The notes under the pieces are model-generated. The model saw only the letters and a program-made list of their open reading frames with translations. It made no database searches and had not been told where the DNA came from. 64,000 nt of DNA from NCBI RefSeq assembly GCF_027579695.1, contig NC_083583.1, forward strand, positions 2,531,542 to 2,595,541. Reading direction: 5' to 3'. The translations under genes were made by a program, and so were the position numbers. This document shows positions 4,711-56,848 of the stretch, piece after piece; the stretch's first letter is position 1, and the number at the start of each line of letters is the position of its first letter. Source of the DNA: Neoarius graeffei (lineage: Eukaryota > Chordata > Actinopteri > Siluriformes > Ariidae).

Positions 4711-6057
4711 AGACTGGTACCAAAATTCAAAAAAGTGCTTATTTAAGGAGTTAAAGGCATTTTTGAGACAAAGTCGGCAAACAGTCTTATTTTGTCAATT
4801 TGGGTGTGCCGAATTCAAATCTGCAATATGCCGAGCTCTATCTGAGCTCTGTTGACCTCTAGAGGTCATTGAACTTTGGGCCTGTAAACGTCTCAGCTGA
4901 ACCCAGTTTCTCAGCTTTCTAAGGAATGAAATGTACTAAAATGATTAATGAAGTTAGCAAACGGCCTTGTTTGTTAAATGTTTGGGTGCTGAATTCATTT
5001 TTCATTTGTAAAACAACATACGACCTCTGATAACCTCAAGGTCATTAAACTTGGCCTATAGGCCTATGCATTTAACGGCATTTTTAAACTGACTTTACTC
5101 CCCCAAAAAGAATATGAACAGACAAAAAACAAATAGAAAGGAACAAATACAACATTAAATGCCAGCCCATGTACATGTGACTTACTTTTCACAATGAGAA
5201 TGCCTCGGCGATCACCTTACATAACATTGCATTACATTTAGCGGTTATTGTTTATACAAAGCTACTGAAAAAAGGACAGATTCAGCAGCATACAAAATGT
5301 GGGGGCATACAGGGTATACAGGTTCATCAGGGTTAGTATATATGAGAGTTTTTTTCTTTGTTGTTTGTTTTTTGTAAAGGCTTTACCCCGTTTAAAACAA
5401 AACAAAAAACAAACAACAAAGAAAAAAACTCTCATCTATACTAACCCTGATTAACCTGTATACCCTGTATGCCCCCACATTTTGTATGCTGCTGAATCTG
5501 TCCTTTTTTCAGTAGCTTTGTATAAACAATAACCGCTAAATGTAATGCAATGTTATGTAAGGTGATCGCCGAGGCATTCTCATTGTGAAAAGTAAGTCAC
5601 ATGTACATGGACTGGCATTTAATGTTGTATTTGTTCCTTTCTATTTGTTTTTTGTCTGTTCATATTCTTTTTGGGGGAGTAAAGCCAGTTTAAAAATGCC
5701 GTTAAATGCATAGGCCTATAGGCCAAGTTTAATGACCTTGAGGTTATCAGAGGTCGTATGTCGTTTTACAAATGAAAAATGAATTCAGCACCCAAACATT
5801 TAACAAACAAGGCCATTTGCTAACTTCATTAATCATTTTAGTACATTTCATTCCTTAGAAAGCTGAGAAACTGGGTTCAGCTGAGATGTTTACAGGCCCA
5901 AAGTTCAATGACCTCTAGAGGTCAACAGAGGTCAGATAGAGCTCGGCATATTGCAGATTTGAATTCGGCACACCCAAATTGACAAAATAAGACTGTTTGC
6001 CGACTTTGTCTCAAAAATGCCTTTGGGTGTCACAATTCTGGATTTTGGTACCAGTCT
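4711..6057. repeat. 1.35-kb near-perfect palindrome (foldback repeat)
   Basis: The left arm (4711-5374) and right arm (5403-6057) are reverse complements with few differences and a 28-base loop. The outer end is AGACTGGTACCAAAAT on the left, mirrored by ATTTTGGTACCAGTCT on the right. The outermost 60 bases have diverged more than the centre. Each arm also contains a degenerate direct duplication of about 105 bases (4773-4886 and 4953-5056), both copies running from a GCAAAC start through GAATTCA to GGTCATT and GGCCT. No ORF or clear target duplication is seen. It could be a foldback transposon, or a transcript from it could form a long hairpin. Confidence 0.93.
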
Positions 6058-11583: not shown

Positions 11584-11971
11584 CGGGGTGGCACGGTGGT
11601 GTAGTGGTTAGTGCTGTCACCTCACAGCAAGAAGGTCCGGGTTCGAGCCCCGTGGCTGGCGAGGGCCTTTCTGTGCGGAGTTTGCATGTTCTCCCCGTGT
11701 CCGCGTGGGTTTCCTCCGGGTGCTCCGGTTTCCCCCACAGTCCAAAGACATGCAGGTTAGGTTAACTGGTGACTCTAAATTGAGCGTAGGTGTGAATGTG
11801 AGTGTGAATGGTTGTCTGTGTCTATGTGTCAGCCCTGTGATGACCTGGCGACTTGTCCAGGGTGTACCCCGCCTTTCACCCGTAGTCAGCTGGGATAGGA
11901 TCCAGCTCGCCTGCGACCCTGTAGAACAGGATAAAGCAGCTAGAGAGAATGGATGGATGGATGGATGGATG
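11584..11971 (+). repeat. tRNA-derived SINE, full length, copy 1
   Basis: The head contains pol III promoter-like boxes: a GTGGTGTAGTGG A-box region and a B box GGTTCGAGCCC. The body includes TTGCATGTTCTCCCCGTGT and GACCTGGCGACTTGTCC, and the tail ends in GGATAAAG...(GGAT)n. An 11-bp target duplication (GATGTAAGTGA) flanks it at 11573-11583 and 11972-11982, so the ends are exact. The open frames on both strands are SINE sequence. Confidence 0.93.
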
Positions 11972-18337: not shown

Positions 18338-19547
18338 GGAAGGCCAAAGAGGAGATACATGGATGTGGTGAGAGAGGACATGAAAGTGGCAGGTGTGGTA
18401 GAGAAGGATGCAGAAGACAGGGAGCAATGGAGACGAAAGATCCGCTGTGGCGACCCCTAATCGGGAGCAGCCAAAGGAAGAAGATGATTTAAAGATGGAG
18501 CCAATTTAGCACCACTAATCTTACATTGGGCCATCTGATAAATATTGCTGATGTGTTCTTGTATAAGATTTGAGTTGCTTCAGTGATAGGTTCTGGGATT
18601 CCGGAATGTCGGAGGATTTTAAACAGGACAGTATGATCGATCGAATCAAAGGCCTTCTTAAAGTCGACAAAGACTGCTACTAGAGGAAGATTCTGTCCAT
18701 CACATCCTTCCAGGAGTCTCCTGAGAGTGTGGACATGCTCAATGCATCCTCTACCCAGGCGAGAACCTGCTTGGTTGACTCTCAGTTTCGTATCAAGTTA
18801 GTCTCTTATACGGTTCAGCAGTAATTTGTTGTAAAGTTTTGCAGCAATGCTCAGCAGTGTTATACCTCTAATTTTTTTGTTTTAAATCTGAGTTCGATCT
18901 CCTTTTTTTGGCAGTGGGACAATCATGTTCTTCATCCAATCACTCAGTGCTTTTAGACTGTTCTTGATTACACTGACCAGTTTAAGTAGCCTCTCTGATA
19001 GAGAATTGCCACTTTATTTGAGCACTTCAGCGGTGAAACCAGGAGTTTTGTAGTTGTTTAAGCCTTTGATAGCTTTTTCTAGTCCCTTTCTATCGAAATC
19101 TCCTATTTTGATGTCTAAATCACACTCTACTGGAGGAATTTCACGTGTTGAAGTTACTCCAGGAGCATTTCACACGTTGGAAAAGTATTTTCTCCGTTCC
19201 TGAAGAAGTTCTGATTGAGATTTGATGACGTCTCCGTTTGGCTTCCTGGCTTTACTAGCAGGGCACGACAATGATGTACCGCTGATTTAATTCAAATTTT
19301 CCAAGTCTTCCTTGACGCTCCTTTCCTGTTAGCTTGTTCCAGTTCTTGGATCTGCTTTTCGATGCATCTCTGTCATCATAGTAGGACTGTTGTACTTTCT
19401 TTGCAAGAGCTTTCCAGATTTCTTTCTACACTTGTGTTTTCTTATGATGATGATGCTTTTTGCCAATGTTTCTTTTAGACAAAAGGCACAACGTTGCATC
19501 GGACACCCATTTCTTTGTAGCTTGCTAAAAAAAAATTTTAACGTACA

Positions 19548-20662
19548 TGTAACAACTGCTCATCAGCCTTATGTTATTACTATTATTAACTTCTAGGGAT
19601 GATCGCTCACTTCAACGGGGGCCGGGAATAGCATGACTATAGATGAATGTTGTGTTATTTTGCTCTGAGCCCCCACTTTGAGCTACACCTCAAAGACATA
19701 TCACTAAAATATTTAAACTATATATTTACACTATATTCATCAATATATATATCAATACATATAAAAAAAGGAAGGTTAAACACGTGTTAGAAAAAAAAAT
19801 CAATAAGTAATATTTATTTGAAACCATTCGTGTGAATCTGATATTTACCTAAACCCACACATTAACACTATATGACTCAAACAGCATTAGGCGATCAACA
19901 ATAAACAGCAATAAAAAAAGAAAATAAATACACGGGTATTAAAACAGTTAATTATTGGTACCAAGTTGGCGCGCGTTGGAACTCTTGCCGATGTAGAACA
20001 GAATAACAGTTGACTCGCGTATCCAGGAACATGAATTGCTCGCCTTGTAGGCTAAACTGAAGCCACCACCCGACTGTACATCACCCCGGTCTCAAAACGT
20101 CCAACGCTGTCCGTCACCGTTACCATCCACACAGCAGACAAGGTTGGACCCCAGCGAACCTCCCTGGCACCTCAGAGTAATCCTCGTTCTGTTGTGGTGA
20201 TGCTAATGTTTTGCTAGTAAGCTAGCAAAGATTCTGTTGGTCACAGCTAGCATTTTCAGCTCCAGCTGGAAAAAGTGGGCAAAGATGCACTTTCACAAAA
20301 CTGTGACACATAAATGACGTGTGCCTACCGCCGGTGTCTAAAAGTCCATCTTCCCTTGTGCATCTGCAGTCGTCTTTAAATAGGTCTCCAACATTGTTAT
20401 CACACTCGGGGGGAAAAAAAACACGTCACTTCCCCCAACTCTTGTTTCTCCTCCCACCCCCATTACCATAACAATCAGGCGGGCATACAAAACAACAGTA
20501 CGCCAAGCAAAATACAATACATATCGTACAATTACAACGTTAAATATCAATTCTTAAAAGATTATAGCTAAATACTTATTCAATCTCTTATTAAAAATAC
20601 ATAATATTACAGACAGTATATAAACACAAATTCGGCTTAGCCTAATTTTCAGGTGTGTTACA
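19548..20662 (-). repeat. 3' LTR (short form, 1115 bp)
   Basis: Same sequence as the outer parts of 23148-25514, from TGTAACAACTGCTCATCAGC to GGTGTGTTACA. A TTTCACAAAACTGTGACACAT junction replaces the extra 1.2 kb present in the other LTR. Confidence 0.88.
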
Positions 20663-20790
20663 CTCTCCCCCTACAGAAAAAGGTCATGTCCTCATGACAA
20701 AGGAAAATAGATTAGACTACACCATCCCAAAATTACCACACATACCAGAAATTAGTCCTATGTAAGGAACTATTTGAAAGAAAGAGTTTT

Positions 20791-22062
20791 TTACCTGAGC
20801 CCAGGGCCTACCCATTTAAACACAGTACTGACATATCTAGTAGCAGGGGTGGTATCTGACCTACTGACTACTAGAAAGAGGGATGGTAAGGTTACTGAGG
20901 TGGGCTGCCCCAGGGAGTCATATGTCAATCTTGCTGGTGCCCTTCTCACCCTCTGGGGTCTTGGGGTTTCAGGTGCAGAAAAGCTCTGTGTCCTTATGTC
21001 ATGGGGGGACCTCTCATGCTGTCTTTGGGTCTCTGGGGCATTAGTCTCCATCTCTTGCAGACCATCTGCCACTCGCCTTTCATCTTCAGCAAAGGTTGCC
21101 GGTAAGGGTTGACTGAAGTCAGCAGTGGACATATCCTGAACAGAGGGCAGACTGGAACAAGAGTGGCTGAGTGGGGAGTCAGGGTAAGGCAGAGGCGTGT
21201 TTGGACAAGTGTGGCCAGGGGAGGCAGCTTCAGGGGTAAAGACAGGTGGATGTACACCAGACTGCCCTAACAGAGAATCAGAGTCATTCGTCACGGCAGG
21301 CCAATCCCTTTCAAAGACCAGCCAAATGGGCACATCTGAGTCATCTTCACCAGTGTCCTGAACCATGGATGGATAATGTAGAGTGTATGCACTCAGCTCC
21401 TCTCCTTCTGACTCAGAAGTAGATGGTTCACTAGCCAAAATGCTCTCCACCTCCTCAGGCAAAGGCACTTGTCTCTTTCTCAGCTGTCTGCTTGACCTTC
21501 GCTTGAGTTTGCCCGTCTCTGAAGTGTCTCCTGGCCTCAGCTGAACGTCTTGTCCGAGGGGTAGCAGTAGGTTGCGGTGTAGAACTTTATCAGGACCCAC
21601 TCCATTCTCTGGTCTTAATTTGTACATGGGTAAGCCTGGCAGTTGACTTTGTACAATGTAGGGGTCTGAACACCAACGGTCTGCAATCTTGTGCTTCCCT
21701 TGTAGGCCAAGGTTCTTCATCAACACTCTGTCCCCAGGAGCAAGAGGACAGTATCGGACCCTCTGGTCATAGCAGTGCTTGTTTGCCTTATTTCTCTTTC
21801 CAGCCATGCTCTCAGCCGCCTGATAAGCCGCTTGAAGATCTCGTCTCATATTTGCGACATATCTTGCATAGGACTTTGGGGATGAGCTGTCACTGGACAC
21901 GCCAAAGCACACATCAACTGGCAGGTGAGCTTCATGTCCAAACATCAAGTAGTAAGGGCTGTAGCCAGTGCTGTCATGCTTGGTGCAGTTGTATGCATGG
22001 ACAAGGTAGCTAATGTGCTGGCTCCATTTCCCCTTTTCTTCTGGCTTCAGTGTACCCAGCAT
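20791..22062 (-). pseudogene. Gypsy-type integrase C-terminal part with long tail
   Basis: The frame begins MLGTLKPEEKGKWSQHISYL, the region just after the integrase catalytic Glu, and continues YNCTKHDSTGYSPYYLMFG, PVDVCFGV, an alanine-rich helix, YDQRVRYCPLAPGDRVL and ADRWCSDPYIVQSQLPGLPMYKL, a GPY/F-like module. About 250 residues of polar, Ser/Pro-rich tail follow and contain no motif I know. It is separated from the catalytic core (22088-22534) by a one-base lesion near 22100. The stop lies 128 bases from the 3' LTR. Confidence 0.85.
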
Positions 22063-22087
22063 GTTGAGCAGTGTCCTACTGAAACGC

Positions 22088-22472
22088 TCAGGCTGTGGAT
22101 CTCTCTGCGGGTGATATGGTTCTTGACTTCTTCACTCCCAGCATACCCAGCAGTTCATGGATGAAATGACTCTCGAAATCTCTGCCTTGGTCTGAGTGCA
22201 CTCTGTTAGGTAGGCCATAGTGAACAAAGAACTTCTCCCATAACACTTTAGCCACTGTAGATGATGTCTGGTCTTTTGTGGGAAATGCTTGTGCATACCG
22301 GGTGTAGTGATCGGTGACCACAAGAACATTGCAGATATTCTTAGAGTCTGGTTCAAGGGACAGAAAGTCAATGCAGACAAGATCCATTGGCCCATTACTG
22401 CTGAGGTGGGAAAGTTCAGCAGCTCTGGTTGGCAAGGTCTTTCGCTGAATACAGCTGAACCAGTTCTTACAG
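22088..22472 (-). pseudogene. Gypsy-type integrase catalytic core, 5'-truncated
   Basis: It starts in the integrase zinc finger (CKNWFSCIQRKTLPTRAAEL, the last two Cys), then DLVCIDFLSLEPDS (first Asp), VVTDHYTRYAQAFPTKDQ and HSDQGRDFESHFIHEL (second Asp). The Glu-containing HPQ...PERF text follows a frame break near 22100. The upstream half of pol is missing: at about 22473 the sequence changes to STK33-like coding on the opposite strand. The frame above 22472 is shadow. Confidence 0.85.
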
Positions 22473-23074
22473 AAAAAAGGCCATTTCAGTGAAGAGGACA
22501 ATAAATACATCATCGGCGGCTTAGCCGAGGCCACTGTCTACCTTCACAAGCGGGGCATCGTTCACAGGGATCTCAAACTGGAAAACATTCTTGTGGACAG
22601 TTATGAACAGAGAAATGATCAGACCATCGTAAACATCAAGATCACAGACTTTGGACTGTCCGTGCAGAAACGTGGAGTGGGCAGTGCGCGCATGATGCAA
22701 AGCACATGTGGGACACCTCAGTACATGGCACCTGAAGTGCTCGCTGGCCATGACTACAGCCAGCAGTGTGACGTATGGAGCATCGGTATAATCATGTACA
22801 TTCTGATAAGTGGAGAACATCCGTTCACGCCCAACTCTCATGAACATTTGTTTCAAAAAATTAAGAAGGGGGAACTGAATTCTCTGCTGCTGTGTGGGAG
22901 ACCATCAGTGACACAGCCAAAGCGGCGCTGATCTGTCTGCTGAAAGTTGACCCAGTGTATCGCATCACAGCCAGTGAGCTGCTGGATCACCCCTGGATCA
23001 TGGGAGACACGTCTGCGGATATCTTCCCCACCAACGTCCTGGAGATGATGAAAGAGTTCCAGAATGAGCTATAG
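22473..23074 (+). pseudogene. stk33: STK33-like protein kinase, intronless fragment inside the LTR element
   Basis: The plus strand reads without introns from GHFSEEDNKYIIGGLAEATV through the catalytic loop (IVHRDLKLENIL), the DFG motif (ITDFGLSVQK), the activation segment (TCGTPQYMAPEV) and helix F (DYSQQCDVWSIGIIMY) to HPFTPNSHEHLFQKIKKGEL. A frame change near 22880 moves it to VWETISDTAKAALICLLKVD, RITASELLDHPWIMG and TNVLEMMKEFQNEL before a TAG. The TNVLEMMKE end is characteristic of STK33 to my knowledge. The N-lobe, with its glycine loop and VAIK lysine, is absent, so no active kinase is possible. Lack of introns over 600 bases indicates a cDNA-derived copy, antisense to the host element. 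Confidence 0.85.
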
Positions 23075-23128
23075 GATGAGGAAAGCAAGCAGGCGAGCCA
23101 GGGAACGGGCGACCTCCCTCACAGCCAC

Positions 23129-23145
23129 TCCCGGACGAGCCCCCA
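23129..23145 (-). promoter_or_regulatory. Primer-binding site, tRNA-Pro type
   Basis: On the minus strand, two bases after the LTR, the sequence reads TGGGGGCTCGTCCGGGA. It is complementary to the 3' end of tRNA-Pro, as used by several retroelements. It fixes the element's orientation and the LTR edge at 23148. Confidence 0.85.
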
Positions 23146-23342
23146 CATGTAACAACCCTGCTCATCAGCCTTGTGTTATTACTATTATTAACTTCTAGGG
23201 ATGATCGCTCACTTCAACGGAGGCCGGGAATAGCATGACTATAGACGAATGTTGTGTTATTTTGCTCTGAGCCCCCACTTTGAGCTACACCTCAAAGACA
23301 TATCACTAAAATATTTAAACTATATATTTACACTATATTCAT

Positions 23343-23343
<1 letters not shown>

Positions 23344-23406
<63 letters not shown>
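23344..23406. repeat. (AT)n microsatellite in the 5' LTR
   Basis: About 63 bases of alternating AT. The matching place in the 3' LTR (19741-19751) is only about 11 bases, so the tract expanded after the LTRs separated. Confidence 0.95.
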
Positions 23407-23408
<2 letters not shown>

Positions 23409-23928
23409 ATACGTATAAAAAAGGAAGGTTAAACACGTGTTAGAAAAAAAAATCAATAAGTAATATTTATTTGAAACCATTCGTGTGAATCTGATATTTA
23501 CCTAAACCCACACATTAACACTATATGACTCATAAACAGCATTAGGCGATCAACAATAAACAGCAATAAAAAAAGAAAATAAATACACGGGTATTAAAAC
23601 AGTTAATTATTGGTACCAAGTTGGCGCGCGTTGGAACTCTTGCCGATGTAGAACAGAATAACAGTTGACTCACGTATCCAGGAACATGAATTGCTCGCCT
23701 TGTAGGCTAAACTGAAGCCACCACCTGACTGTACATCACCCCGGTCTCAAAACGTCCAACGCTGTCCGTCACCGTTACCATCCACATAGCAGACGAGGTT
23801 GGACCCCAGCGAACCTCCCTGGCACCTCGGAGTAATCCTCGTTCTGTTGTGGTGATGCTAATGTTTTGCTAGCAAGCTAGCATTTTCAGCTCCAGCTGGA
23901 AAAAGTGGGCGAAGATGCACTTTCACAG

Positions 23929-25157
23929 AACACAAACTCAAACTAGAGACAATTTCCTTGTGGGAAATTGTGAGAGTGATGGAGTGCGCATAGCAGTTAC
24001 AGTTGCTGGAGCTGAGCTGTACTGTGTGAATGTGTGACTTGCCTTGATGCTTCAAGCCTGTGTCTCTCTGAGAGCGAGCAGCCCCTCCCTCCCGTGTGTG
24101 AGAGCAAGCAGCCCCTCCCTCCCGTGTGTGAGAGCGAGCAGCCCCTCCCTCCCGTGTGTGAGAGCGAGCAGCCCCTCCCTCCCGTGTGTGTGTGAGATCG
24201 AGCAGCCCCTCCCCCACCCGCGCGCTGCGAGCAGAGATACAGAGAGGCACACAGAAAGTGAAGGATTTGCTCAGAGTGCTCCCTCCAAACAACGGGGATT
24301 TACACGGAAACGGAAGGAGATATTCACAAAATTCTTTCTGAGTGCCACAAGGGTCTCCTGAACACATTGATGTAATTTTTTTGTCTGTAGTGTAAAAAAT
24401 GAGGTCACTAGAGCGAGTTAAAAACGAGTGACTTTTCTGCCACGTTTATAATGGGAGTCTATGGGGCAGCGCGCCTGTCCTCTCCTTACTTTCAGGCTTC
24501 TCATTCAAAAACTGTAAATCCTATCGTGTAGTTAGACACATTCTGTGAATCAGGACAAGTGTGGCTACTACTTTTGAGAAAATTATGTGTGTGTAGAGTG
24601 AGAAATGTGGCTGAAATCACAGTTTAAAAGAGAAAGTTTGAGCTTTTTTTTCAGGCTGCCTACACTCTAAATTCCTGAGCTCCACTGGTGTGTAACGCAA
24701 TAGGCACCCATTATAAAGCCTGATTTTTGTCCTGGCACCCACATGGTGTTTGAGCTGGGACTGATCCAAAAGTATAGAACCTAGCAAAAAAGTTGAATGG
24801 CAGATCCACAGAGGAGAAGTTTGTCTACATTTTAAAGTTTGAATCATGTCTCTAGGTGAAAGCATGCCAGAGCAGCGGAGGTTTGAAAAACATTGAAAAA
24901 GTGCGTTGTTTTTCAATTAATTCCATAGAAATGAATGGGAAATTTTGGGTGATTCACAGAATGCTGAACAAAGCAATAGCACACCGAGTCCGATCGAGCC
25001 GCACGTTTTGATGTATTGCTTGTCTGTGTGCGATGTACGGTTATTGGGTTATTAAGAATCGAAATTTCTAGAGAGCCTAGGTACTCCTCTAATAATAAGA
25101 AGAAACACACAGAACAACAATAGTTATGCGTGCCTAGGGACTGCATCACTAACTAAA
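23929..25157. repeat. 1.2-kb block present in one LTR only
   Basis: This block is absent from the other LTR. It includes a GC-richer tandem repeat (24065-24215) and AT-rich flanks. No ORF is supported. It is either a nested insertion or original LTR sequence lost from the short copy; clean ends or duplications were not found. Confidence 0.7.
24065..24215 (+). repeat. About 30-bp minisatellite, 4-5 units
   Basis: Units are built from GAGAGCGAGCAGCCCCTCCC followed by TCCCGTGTGT. Overlapping frames give repetitive peptides on both strands that reflect only the array. Confidence 0.92.
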
Positions 25158-25581
25158 AGTGTGGCACATAAATGCCGTGTGCCTACCGCTGGTGTCTAAA
25201 AGTCCATCCTCCCTTGTGCATCCGCAGTCGTCTTTAAATAGGTCTCCAACATTATCACACTCGGGGGAAAAAACACGTCACTTCCCCCAACTCTTGTTTC
25301 TCCTCCCACCCCCATTACCATAACAATCAGGCGGGCATACAAAACAACAGTACGCCAAGCAAAATACAATACATATCGTACAATTACAATGTTAAATATC
25401 AATTCTTATAAGATTATAGCTAAATACTTATTCAATCTCTTATTAAAAATACATAATATTACAGACAGTATATAAACACAAATTCGGCTTAGCCTAATTT
25501 TCAGGTGTGTTACACACATTTTGCTTGATTACTTATAGCATGAGGAACAGAATTCACACCTGTTCGTTTATGGTGCGTGTA

Positions 25582-27185
25582 CAGTGAGGCAAAAAAATAT
25601 TTAGTCAGTCACCAATTGTGCAAGTTCTCCCACTTAAAAAGATGAGAGAGGCCTGTAATTTTCATCATAGGTACACTTCAACTATGAGAGACAGAATGAG
25701 AAAAAAAAATCCAGAAAATCACATTGTCTGATTTTTAAAGAATTTATTTGCAAATTATGGTGGAAAATAAGTATTTGGTCAATAACAAAAGTTCATCTCA
25801 ATACTTTGTTATATACCCTTTGTTGGCAATGACAGAGGTCAAACATTTTCTGTAAGTCTTCACAAGGTTTTCACACACTGTTGCTGGTATTTTGGCCCAT
25901 TCCTCCATGCAGATCTCCTCTAGAGCAGTGATGTTTTGGGGCTGTCGCTGGGCAACACGGACTTTCAACTCCCTCCAAAGATTTTCTATAGGGTTGAGAT
26001 CTGGAGACTGGCTAGGCCACTCCAGGACCTTGAAATGCTCCTTACGAAGCCACTCCTTCGTTGCCCGGGCGGTGTGTTTGGGATCATTGTCATGCTGAAA
26101 GACCCAGCCACGTTTCATCTTCAATGCCCTTGCTGATGGAAGGAGGTTTTCACTCAAAATCTCACGATACATGGCCCCATTCATTCTTTCCTTTACACGG
26201 ATCAGTCGTCCTGGTCCCTTTGCAGAAAAACAGCCCCAAAGCATGATGTTTCCACCCCCATGCTTCACAGTAGGTATGGTGTTCTTTGGATGCAACTCAG
26301 CATTCTTTCTCCTCCAAACACGACAAGTTGAGTTTTTACCAAAAAGTTCTATTTTGGTTTCATCTGACCATGTGACATTCTCCCAATCCTCTTCTGGATC
26401 ATCCAAACGCTCTCTAGCAAACTTCAGATGGGCCTGGACATGTACTGGCTTAAGCAGGGGGACACGTCTGGCACTGCAGGATTTGAGTCCCTGGCGGCAT
26501 AGTGTGTTACTGATGGTAGCCTTTGTTACTTTGGTCCCAGCTCTCTGCAGGTCATTCACTAGGTCCCCCCGTGTGGTTCTGGGATTTTTGCTCACCGTTC
26601 TTGTGATCATTTTGACCCCACGGGGTGAGATCTTGCGTGGAGCCCCAGATCGAGGGAGATTATCAGTGGTCTTGTATGTCTTCCATTTTCTAATAATTGC
26701 TCCCACAGTTGATTTCTTCACATCAAGCTGCTTACCTATTGCAGATTCAGTCTTCCCAGCCTGGTGCAGGTCTATAATTTTGTTTCTGGTGTCCTTTGAC
26801 AGCTCTTTGGTCTTGGCCATAGTGGAGTTTGGAGTGTGACTGTTTGAGGTTGTGGACAGGTGTCTTTTATACTGATAACGAGTTCAAACAGGTGCCATTA
26901 ATACAGGTAACGAGTGGAGGACAGAGGAGCCTCTTAAAGAAGTTGTTACAGGTCTGTGAGAGCCAGAAATCTTGCTTGTTTGTAGGTGACCAAATACTTA
27001 TTTTACCGAGGAATTTACCAATTAATTCATTAAAAATCCTACAATGTGATTTCCTGGATTCTTTCCCCCCATTCTGTCTCTCATAGTTGAAGTGTACCTA
27101 TGATGAAAATTACAGGCCTCTCTCATCTTTTTAAGTGGGAGAACTTGCACAATTGGTGGCGACTAAATACTTTTTTGCCCCACTG
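25582..27185 (-). mobile_element. Tc1/mariner transposon, copy 1, apparently complete
   Basis: The ends are CAGTGAGGCAAAAAAATATT and the inverted TACTTTTTTGCCCCACTG, each next to TA (25580-25581 and 27186-27187), the Tc1 target duplication. Long terminal inverted repeats include TTGTGCAAGTTCTCCCACTT and AGGCCTGTAATTTTCATCAT on both sides. The left end differs slightly (GTGAGG for GTGGGG). One ORF fills the middle. Confidence 0.95.
25798..26820 (-). CDS. Tc1-family transposase, 340 aa, open
   Basis: The length is normal for a Tc1 transposase and the frame has no interruption. Residues 1-110 form the paired-type helix-turn-helix DNA-binding region ([20 protein letters not shown], then RPRSGAPRK-like [12 protein letters not shown]). 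The DD34E catalytic triad is present: Asp153 ([11 protein letters not shown]), Asp244 ([11 protein letters not shown]) and Glu279 ([12 protein letters not shown]), with 34 residues between the last two. The glycine-rich box is [17 protein letters not shown]. It differs from the second copy (55609-56631) at about ten residues, for example Asp33 versus Gly and Cys108 versus Arg. Whether it still moves DNA cannot be judged by eye. Confidence 0.95.
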
Positions 27186-28162
27186 TATATATATTTTTTA
27201 AACTGTCTAATCTACATTTTCCACATATTTTGTGATTGGACATGCCAGATTTCAGCTATCATTAGCAGCTGGTTCACTGTGATCTGATGTGTGAAACTGG
27301 ATCTAAATATTTTTCTTTTGGGTGACTCAGAAACATCAGATTATAGACTTTATTATATATGATCTATCCATCTATCTACAACCCCGATTCCAAAAATGTT
27401 GGAACGCTGTGTAAACTGTCAATAAAAACAGAATGTGAGGATTTGCAAATCATGTAAACTCTATATTTCATTGAAAATAGTACAAAGACAACATATCACA
27501 ATGTTGAAAGTGAGAAATGTTATTGTTTTTTGAAAAATATTTGCTCATTTTGAATTTGATGTCAGCAACACATTTCAAAAAAGTTGGGACGGGACGTGTT
27601 TACCACTGTGTTGTATCACCTCTACTTTTAACAACATTCTGTAAAAGTTTGGGAACTGAGGAGACCAATTGCTGTAGTTTTGAAAGAGAAATGTTGTTCT
27701 ATTCTGCTGCTGATGTCACAGGGCACAGGTCACATGAGCTTAAATACAATTTCAGTTGCTCAATAGTTCAGGGTCTCCTTTGTAGTATTTTGCACTTCAT
27801 AATGCACCAAATGTTTTAAATAGGAGACAGGTCTGGACTGCAGCAGGCCAGTTTAGCACCCAGACTCTTTTACTCTGGAGCCATGCAGTTTTAATACGTG
27901 TAGAAAGCAGTTTGGTGTTGTCTTACTGAAAGAAGGAAGGCTTTCTGTGCTGCCTTGTCAGTCAATTGATTGAAGAAACACAGGACGAGTTGGAATTATC
28001 CTTTATGTGCCAGCGTGTACTAAGACTTGCCAACGGAAATGACACAGAGGAGTTATCATCAAGTGGGCACCCCCTTCATCAGCGTTTCGTTGATTTAAGC
28101 CCACGACGCCTCCGGAAGGCTCAACGGTAACCCCAGGCGTCCCTGAAGTACCCCCCTCTGTG

Positions 28163-55210: not shown

Positions 55211-55244
55211 CCGGTACTTAGACATTGTACACAGCTGGCTTATA

Positions 55245-56846
55245 CAGTGGGGCAAAAAAGTATTTAGTCAGCCACCAATTGTGCAAGTTCTCCCACTTAA
55301 AAAGTTGAGAGAGGCCTGTAATTTTCATCATAGGTACACTTCAACTATGAGAGACAGAATGGGGGGAAAGAATCCAGGAAATCACATTGTAGGATTTTTA
55401 ATGAATTAATTGGTAAATTCCTCAGTAAAATAAGTATTTGGTCACCTACAAACAAGCAAGATTTCTGGCTCTCACAGACCTGTAACAACTTCTTTAAGAG
55501 GCTCCTCTGTCCTCCACTCGTTACCTGTATTAATGGCACCTGTTTGAACTCGTTATCAGTATAAGACACCTGTCCACAACCTCAAACAGTCACACTCCAA
55601 ACTCCACTATGGCCAAGACCAAAGAGCTGTCAAAGGACACCAGAAACAAAATTGTAGACCTGCACCAGGCTGGGAAGACTGAATCTGCAATAGGTAAGCA
55701 GCTTGGCGTGAAGAAATCAACTGTGGGAGCAATTATTAGAAAATGGAAGACATACAAGACCACTGATAATCTCCCTCGATCTGGGGCTCCACGCAAGATC
55801 TCACCCCGTGGGGTCAAAATGATCACAAGAACGGTGAGCAAAAATCCCAGAACCACACGGGGGGACCTAGTGAATGACCTGCAGAGAGCTGGGACCAAAG
55901 TAACAAAGGCTACCATCAGTAACACACTACGCCGCCAGGGACTCAAATCCTGCAGTGCCAGACGTGTCCCCCTGCTTAAGCCAGTACATGTCCAGGCCCG
56001 TCTGAAGTTTGCTAGAGAGCATTTGGATGATCCAGAAGAGGATTGGGAGAATGTCATATGGTCAGATGAAACCAAAATAGAACTTTTTGGTAAAAACTCA
56101 ACTTGTCGTGTTTGGAGGAGAAAGAATCCTGAGTTGCATCCAAAGAACACCATACCTACTGTGAAGCATGGGGGTGGAAACATCATGCTTTGGGGCTGTT
56201 TTTCTGCAAAGGGACCAGGACGACTGATCCGTGTAAAGGAAAGAATGAATGGGGCCATGTATCATGAGATTTTGAGTGAAAACCTCCTTCCATCAGCAAG
56301 GGCATTGAAGATGAAACGTGGCTGGGTCTTTCAGCATGACAATGATCCCAAACACACCGCCCGGGCAACGAAGGAGTGGCTTCGTAAGAAGCATTTCAAG
56401 GTCCTGGAGTGGCCTAGCCAGTCTCCAGATCTCAACCCCATAGAAAATCTTTGGAGGGAGTTGAAAGTCCGTGTTGTCCAGCGACAGCCCCAAAACATCA
56501 CTGCTCTAGAGGAGATCTGCATGGAGGAATGGGCCAAAATACCAGCAACAGTGTGTGAAAACCTTGTGAAGACTTACAGAAAACGTTTGACCTCTGTCAT
56601 TGCCAACAAAGGGTATATAACAAAGTATTGAGATGAACTTTTGTTATTGACCAAATACTTATTTTCCACCATAATTTGCAAATAAATTCTTTAAAAATCA
56701 GACAATGTGATTTTCTGGATTTTTTTTTCTCATTTTGTCTCTCATAGTTGAAGTGTACCTATGATGAAAATTACAGGCCTCTCTCATCTTTTTAAGTGGG
56801 AGAACTTGCACAATTGGTGACTGACTAAATATTTTTTGCCCCACTG
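55245..56846 (+). mobile_element. Tc1/mariner transposon, copy 2, complete
   Basis: The ends are CAGTGGGGCAAAAAAGTATT and AATATTTTTTGCCCCACTG, flanked by TA at 55243-55244 and 56847-56848. Terminal inverted repeats of over 100 bases match copy 1. Length is 1602 bases against 1604 for copy 1, and it lies in the opposite orientation. Both have an open 340-codon ORF. Confidence 0.96.
55609..56631 (+). CDS. Tc1-family transposase, 340 aa, open
   Basis: Cuts and reinserts the element at TA sites by a DDE mechanism. The N-terminal paired-type helix-turn-helix ([20 protein letters not shown], then [20 protein letters not shown]) is complete. Asp153 ([11 protein letters not shown]), Asp244 ([11 protein letters not shown]) and Glu279 ([10 protein letters not shown]) form the DD34E triad. 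About 10 of 340 residues differ from copy 1. Where the copies differ, this one often has the residue I would expect for the family (Gly33 and Arg108), which suggests copy 1 carries more changes. Function cannot be judged without a consensus. Confidence 0.96.
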
Positions 56847-56848
56847 TA

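Follow-up and report, generated by a model that had tools for sequence, protein, structure and literature searches.

An intronless stk33 segment antisense to its host LTR element, probably acquired during plus-strand synthesis

A Ty3/Gypsy-type LTR element on the minus strand of the window (the whole stretch of 64,000 nucleotides analyzed here, from a host assembly of 2.34 Gb in 38 contigs) carries a segment of the host kinase gene stk33 between its primer-binding site (PBS) and its integrase, in the orientation opposite to that of the element. The chimera probably arose in a single round of reverse transcription, in which the strong-stop plus strand switched to a spliced stk33 mRNA and returned to the element within the integrase. 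The best-fitting route, a plus-strand switch onto a sense, spliced mRNA, is absent from the routes listed in the initial annotation of this DNA.

The features of the element are collected in Table 1. Its LTR and integrase are homologous to those of a sibling copy, C2, whose domains run in Ty3 order, which places the element in the family with a PNMA-type gag. Between the PBS and the integrase, C2 contains a PNMA gag (PF14893, 1.2e-39), RVT_1 and RNase H, followed by H2C2 and rve, and an ORF between its gag and RT carries the motif LLDSG, has no Pfam match, and was judged by eye to be a putative protease. The LTR, the tRNA-Pro PBS and the polypurine tract are common to C2 and the window copy, whereas the window copy lacks gag, protease, RT and RNase H, and 673 nt of stk33 stand in place of approximately 4.58 kb of C2 (from gag to the integrase zinc finger). 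The kinase had been annotated as occupying the place of gag, protease and RT next to a truncated integrase zinc finger, and both statements hold in this comparison, the finger being cut at its last Cys, where the pol remnant starts (22452 downwards). The first ORF of the remnant corresponds to rve in Pfam (3.6e-13, minus strand), the second has no match in Pfam, and the remnant is 94-96% identical to siblings C17, C2 and C11, with 96% identity to C2 in the integrase region.

Table 1. Features of the chimeric element in window coordinates.
Feature	Position	Strand	Basis or remark
Target duplication, one side	19544..19547	.	TACA, 4 bp
3' LTR	19548..20662	-	1115 bp, TG...CA; self-BLAST pair with 23148-25514, ends read
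Polypurine tract adjoining 3' LTR	20663..20674	-	sequence; siblings C17 and C2 have the same tract
Pol remnant: integrase core and C-terminal region	20791..22452	-	two ORFs, frame change near 22100
Junction 2 (22452/22453)	22433..22472	-	homology CTG[C/T]AAGAACTG on stk33 side
Processed stk33 segment	22453..23125	+	7 exons fused, kinase domain to part of last matching exon; antisense to element
Two nt between PBS and stk33	23126..23127	-	junction 1 is 23125/23126
Primer-binding site, 18 nt	23128..23145	-	exact match to host tRNA-Pro with C59
5' LTR	23148..25514	-	interrupted by 1.2-kb insert, 23932-25154
Target duplication, other side	25515..25518	.	CACA; 3/4 bases match TACA

The identity of the captured gene is clear. 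The best match of the kinase segment among solved structures is human STK33 (8vf6, E 3.4e-51; the next kinase has 2.9e-29), and Pfam recognizes it as Pkinase (5.7e-40), which bears out the STK33-like kinase of the initial annotation. The parental stk33 gene at C15:1833088-1847264 has seven separate matching exons (95-100% identity), all of which are fused in the window copy, meaning that six introns are absent; the lack of introns noted at first is thereby confirmed, and an origin of the copy through an RNA step is supported. The copy and the parental exons are identical at 658 of 672 aligned bases, with 14 substitutions and one deleted base, and chance similarity is therefore excluded. The same comparison with the parental exons, which had been proposed as a check, corrects two boundaries: the kinase segment does not start at 22473 but runs from 22453 to 23125, and there is no gap of some 70 bases before the PBS, as the exon matches up to 23125 and the PBS lies at 23128-23145. 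An assignment of 22453-22472 to the integrase was rejected, given that the siblings carry a different though similar sequence there and the stretch is stk33.

The copy has since decayed. Its reading frame is broken by the deleted base near 22878 and by a TAG at 23072; eight of the 14 substitutions are nonsynonymous, including one that creates a stop, and the chimeric locus appears to bear no sign of function. The divergence between copy and parent (14/672) is close to that between the two LTRs (22 differences in 1082 aligned bases, a few of which come from a misaligned AT repeat), which indicates that capture and insertion are of similar age. Because a constrained parent should have diverged less, the stk33 capture may be somewhat older, or copying errors may have contributed. 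Probably, the chimera was integrated as a finished unit and decayed later.

The chimera is a single, decayed event and not a mobilised family, as had been envisaged. With as many as three mismatches allowed, the junction 2 pattern has a single match in the 2.34-Gb assembly (reversed control, 0), and the junction 1 pattern occurs once exactly; at three mismatches, the latter also matches the parental exon and its reversed control gives 3 matches, and the exact match alone was counted. A search with 751 bases gave one chimeric locus among 27 matches. In a scan of viral contigs, the kinase gave 13 pattern stretches, none of which was confirmed, and the pol ORF gave no match.

At junction 1, all ten siblings examined pass from CCGGGA (or a one-base variant) through 2-4 variable nt, which include GCT in five of the ten, into GAAGTTGA. 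The window reads CCGGGAGTG and then antisense stk33, GCTGTGAGG, and the parental stk33 in antisense reads GTCCTGGGAGCAGCTGTGAGG. Position 59 is C in 34 of 46 listed loci that match the tRNA-Pro 3' pattern exactly, two of the 34 being read-through elements, and the PBS was therefore taken as TGGGGGCTCGTCCGGGAG; ARAGORN called tRNA-Pro genes in all three loci inspected. The window matches the antisense of a host tRNA-Pro over 19 nt and the PBS has 18 nt, which puts junction 1 where plus-strand strong-stop DNA is expected to end. A tRNA-Pro PBS and a zebrafish tRNA-Pro probe are already in print. Additionally, sibling L048 carries GTG after the PBS, as does the window, and the chimera may therefore stem from a switch that followed closely upon a regular transfer. 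A PBS 11-mer within stk33 was considered and rejected on the parental exon sequence, in which the match consists of CTCCC and GGAC with one extra base.

Homology at junction 1 was scored against four siblings. The left-side local score is 7.5 with three of them (P 0.055) and 8.0 with one (P 0.033), and the right-side local score is 6.0 (P 0.25); in register, 8 of 12 bases agree with one sibling (P 0.004), and 5, 5 and 2 of 12 agree with the other three. Junction 1 thus has weak homology, which counts against the model.

At junction 2, siblings L018-L020 read CTGCAAGAACTGTGCTAGAT followed by GTATTCAGCG, and a related sibling subfamily reads CTGTAAGAACTG or CTGTAAGAATTG. Antisense stk33 reads CTGTAAGAACTGGTTCAGCT followed by CTCC, and the window reads CTGTAAGAACTGGTTCAGCT followed by GTATTCAGCG. 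Six of the nine siblings fetched were scored against stk33. To the left of the breakpoint, four agree with it in register at 14/20 bases and two at 15/20, values of at least 14 having a frequency of 6e-5 among 200,000 position pairs of a random control; to the right, the identity is 5-7/20. In the sense of the element, the homology is thus 5' of each breakpoint, and over it the chimera carries the sequence of the 5' parent, which is the direction of plus-strand growth; of the two junctions, only junction 2 is convincing by itself.

These observations are consistent with the following course of events. Plus-strand strong-stop DNA would run from the polypurine tract through the LTR into the 3' end of the primer tRNA-Pro and, in the normal course, would transfer to the complement of the PBS at the end of the minus strand. 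Here, this second-strand transfer would have failed, with a truncated minus strand possibly behind the failure, and the strong-stop 3' end (...GTCCGGGAGTG) would have been extended on a co-packaged, spliced stk33 mRNA at the site CTCCCAGGAC, the growing plus strand copying the mRNA into antisense cDNA. Approximately 673 nt later, the strand would have returned to minus-strand DNA at a point of the integrase zinc finger at which CTGTAAGAACTG is similar to CTGCAAGAACTG, and a product with two complete LTRs would then have been integrated. The introns were removed in the stk33 sense, so the template was the sense mRNA and the antisense copy is its first cDNA strand, which is continuous with the plus strand of the element. 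Growth of the plus strand on the mRNA, or the joining of such a cDNA, would thus give an antisense copy without any antisense transcript. A search of titles and abstract openings within one open library gave no description of antisense host capture at second-strand transfer.

The joining of a cDNA is the alternative that survives best, although we regard it as unlikely: a separate stk33 cDNA would have been linked by alternative end-joining (alt-EJ) to strong-stop DNA and a truncated element cDNA. Section 12 of a review (PMC12786077) reports a host alt-EJ pathway that uses PBS microhomology to perform second-strand transfer, and other copies in the genome show scars that vary and joins made directly to internal sites. 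However, junction 2 has a long homology, over which the chimera keeps to the stk33 sequence as it would in template switching, and end-joining requires a separately primed stk33 cDNA with an end inside an exon. A switch of the minus strand onto an antisense stk33 transcript or antisense cDNA, which amounts to the common LTR-retrocopy model on a reversed template, is quite improbable; it would also produce the antisense orientation, but the six introns are gone at splice sites of the sense direction, unlike in any antisense transcript, and growth from right to left would call for homology on the opposite side of each junction (a weak argument at junction 1). The antisense transcript that had been offered as a possible template is hence not borne out.

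The insertion of a processed copy, another of the routes first offered, is disfavored as well. A processed pseudogene made by a LINE and put into an older element, from which gag-pol was deleted afterwards, would account for an intronless and 5'-truncated copy of a host mRNA, but we consider it very improbable: poly(A) is absent beside the kinase, the 3' end of the copy lies within a coding exon and adjoins the PBS instead, and the copy and the 4.58-kb deletion have both ends in common, one of them also shared with the PBS. An assembly error that fused stk33 cDNA-like sequence to the element, for which the single copy of the chimera would speak, is hardly credible, since the copy has its 14 substitutions, deletion and stop scattered along its length and the LTRs have diverged by 2%, which indicates that the locus aged as one unit.

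Several observations sit uneasily with the plus-strand switch that we favor. It requires two template switches, and a constrained parent predicts a copy-parent divergence below that of the LTRs, which is not what is found. The target duplication is imperfect, with 3/4 bases matching; the ten siblings examined comprise seven with a perfect 4-bp duplication, one with 3/4, and two in which an end was not found. Additionally, the model leaves unaccounted for the position of the copy (C15:2553994) only 0.71 Mb from the parent on the same contig, a closeness that was noticed after the fact and has a chance of approximately 6e-4 (twice 0.71 Mb / 2342 Mb). This distance would be accounted for if plus-strand synthesis were finished in the nucleus near the stk33 locus, in which case an mRNA may be acquired close to the gene that encodes it and the product inserted in that neighborhood; papers on HIV-1 contain the phrase "completes in the nucleus".

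The chimera resembles the products of LTR-mediated retroposition, known from zebrafish among others, in which a host mRNA lies between LTRs with joins of microsimilarity (PMC5408686). As in those retrocopies, the whole stk33 copy is flanked by the LTRs of one element, with PBS and polypurine tract, and the microsimilarity at the switch points is clear at junction 2 and weak at junction 1. In the model given there (PMC5408686), the mRNA is acquired while cDNA is being made from the PBS, from which we would expect a sense orientation, whereas the segment in the window is antisense, starts at the end of the PBS, and fits plus-strand synthesis. The orientation of the element, which we would expect from this first-strand model, is not that of the copy: the kinase is on the plus strand and the integrase on the minus strand, the antisense arrangement originally annotated, and the chimera is therefore a variant, not a plain member, of the LTR-mediated retrocopies. 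Oncogene capture by retroviruses likewise places host mRNA sequence in an LTR element, in that case in the sense orientation and followed by spread, whereas the window copy is antisense, broken, and single.

To place junction 1 in context, the PBS pattern was followed through the assembly, in which it occurs 134 times (reversed control, 0); 91 of the 134 sites were read, nine further listed places being left out and the remainder unlisted. In three families, diversity over the four columns that follow the PBS exceeds that of the leader (0.23/0.09, 0.31/0.05 and 0.36/0.17). Columns 5-8 reach a diversity of 0.39 in the first family but do not vary in the second and third (0), and the third varies at its LTR end too (0.23). 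The variation of this spot in other copies speaks for the plus-strand model; the invariant columns 5-8 and the variable LTR end speak against it. An eleventh cluster member, L110, whose leader lacks GAAGTTGA, was excluded from the ten in this count. We infer that the variable bases correspond to tRNA position 59, at which the host genes differ, and position 58, at which m1A is expected.

By leader sequence, 14 of the 91 sites are singletons, including the window. Seven of the 91 continue for approximately 17-48 nt into antisense tRNA-Pro and then pass into sequence that differs in each. With tRNA positions numbered from the anticodon position, the read-through ends before position 37 in L065, L088 and L111, before position 9 in L092 and L113, and elsewhere in L068 and L125. 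The sequence that follows is, in the sense orientation, RT in L065, SCAN-type gag in L068, and integrase in L113. Rfam gave no match in the seven read-through loci, and the tRNA identity therefore rests on alignment to the host tRNA-Pro genes. On these grounds, failed second-strand transfer seems to recur.

One of the seven, L092, together with L139 (C15:73421500-73423650), reads through to tRNA position 10 and continues into sequence with antisense ORFs, and L092 is a possible candidate for a second antisense capture; a BEL/Pao-like antisense ORF seen in it by eye was dropped, as Pfam does not support it. In L074 (C6:68123467), the PBS is joined straight to the family leader approximately 50 nt downstream, without tRNA read-through.

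The positions of the read-through ends can be compared with those described for retroviruses. According to PMC13191261, plus-strand strong-stop DNA ends at m1A58, a modification present in tRNA-Pro among other primers; minor strong-stop products end at 55, 54 and 37, and only the products with ends at 58, 55 and 54 serve as active templates. For the primer tRNA of HIV-1, stops are described at 58 and 37, and m1G37 is mentioned for E. coli tRNA-Pro (PMC13191261). The stop at m1A58, the minor products at position 37, and a primer match extending past the PBS are shared with retroviral second-strand transfer, whereas the position-37 product is inactive there (PMC13191261) and copies with such ends, joined elsewhere, are present in this genome.

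It can be suggested tentatively, and with more doubt than confidence, that failed second-strand transfer is a general doorway for foreign RNA into LTR elements, which it would enter in antisense from a stop at a methylated base of the primer tRNA, the element ends recording the modifications of that tRNA (58, 37 and 9); if so, L092, whose join follows tRNA position 10, would represent another instance. Position 9 is included on the assumption that m1G9 is present in vertebrate tRNA-Pro. The proposed mechanism, which would explain antisense host sequence in LTR elements without an antisense transcript, is testable in any genome in the sequence after the PBS. In five of the seven read-through copies, the end falls at a base of the primer tRNA whose methylation is known or suspected, and such ends would make genomes readable for imprecise second-strand transfer, a step known mainly from HIV-1 work, as far as PMC13191261 indicates.

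Other repeats are present in the window. A near-perfect palindrome at 4753-6024 consists of two 636-bp arms (620/636 identical) with no spacer and may be a fold-back element or an assembly artefact. A Tc1-like transposon, recognized by eye, is present in inverted copies at 25580-27189 and 55241-56848, which are 98.7% identical and have TIRs of approximately 210 bp; one copy has a transposase-like ORF of 361 aa (25798-26883). Additionally, a repeat family of approximately 342-391 bp has five long copies, at 11585, 37162, 40274, 45417 and 49888, and several partial copies.
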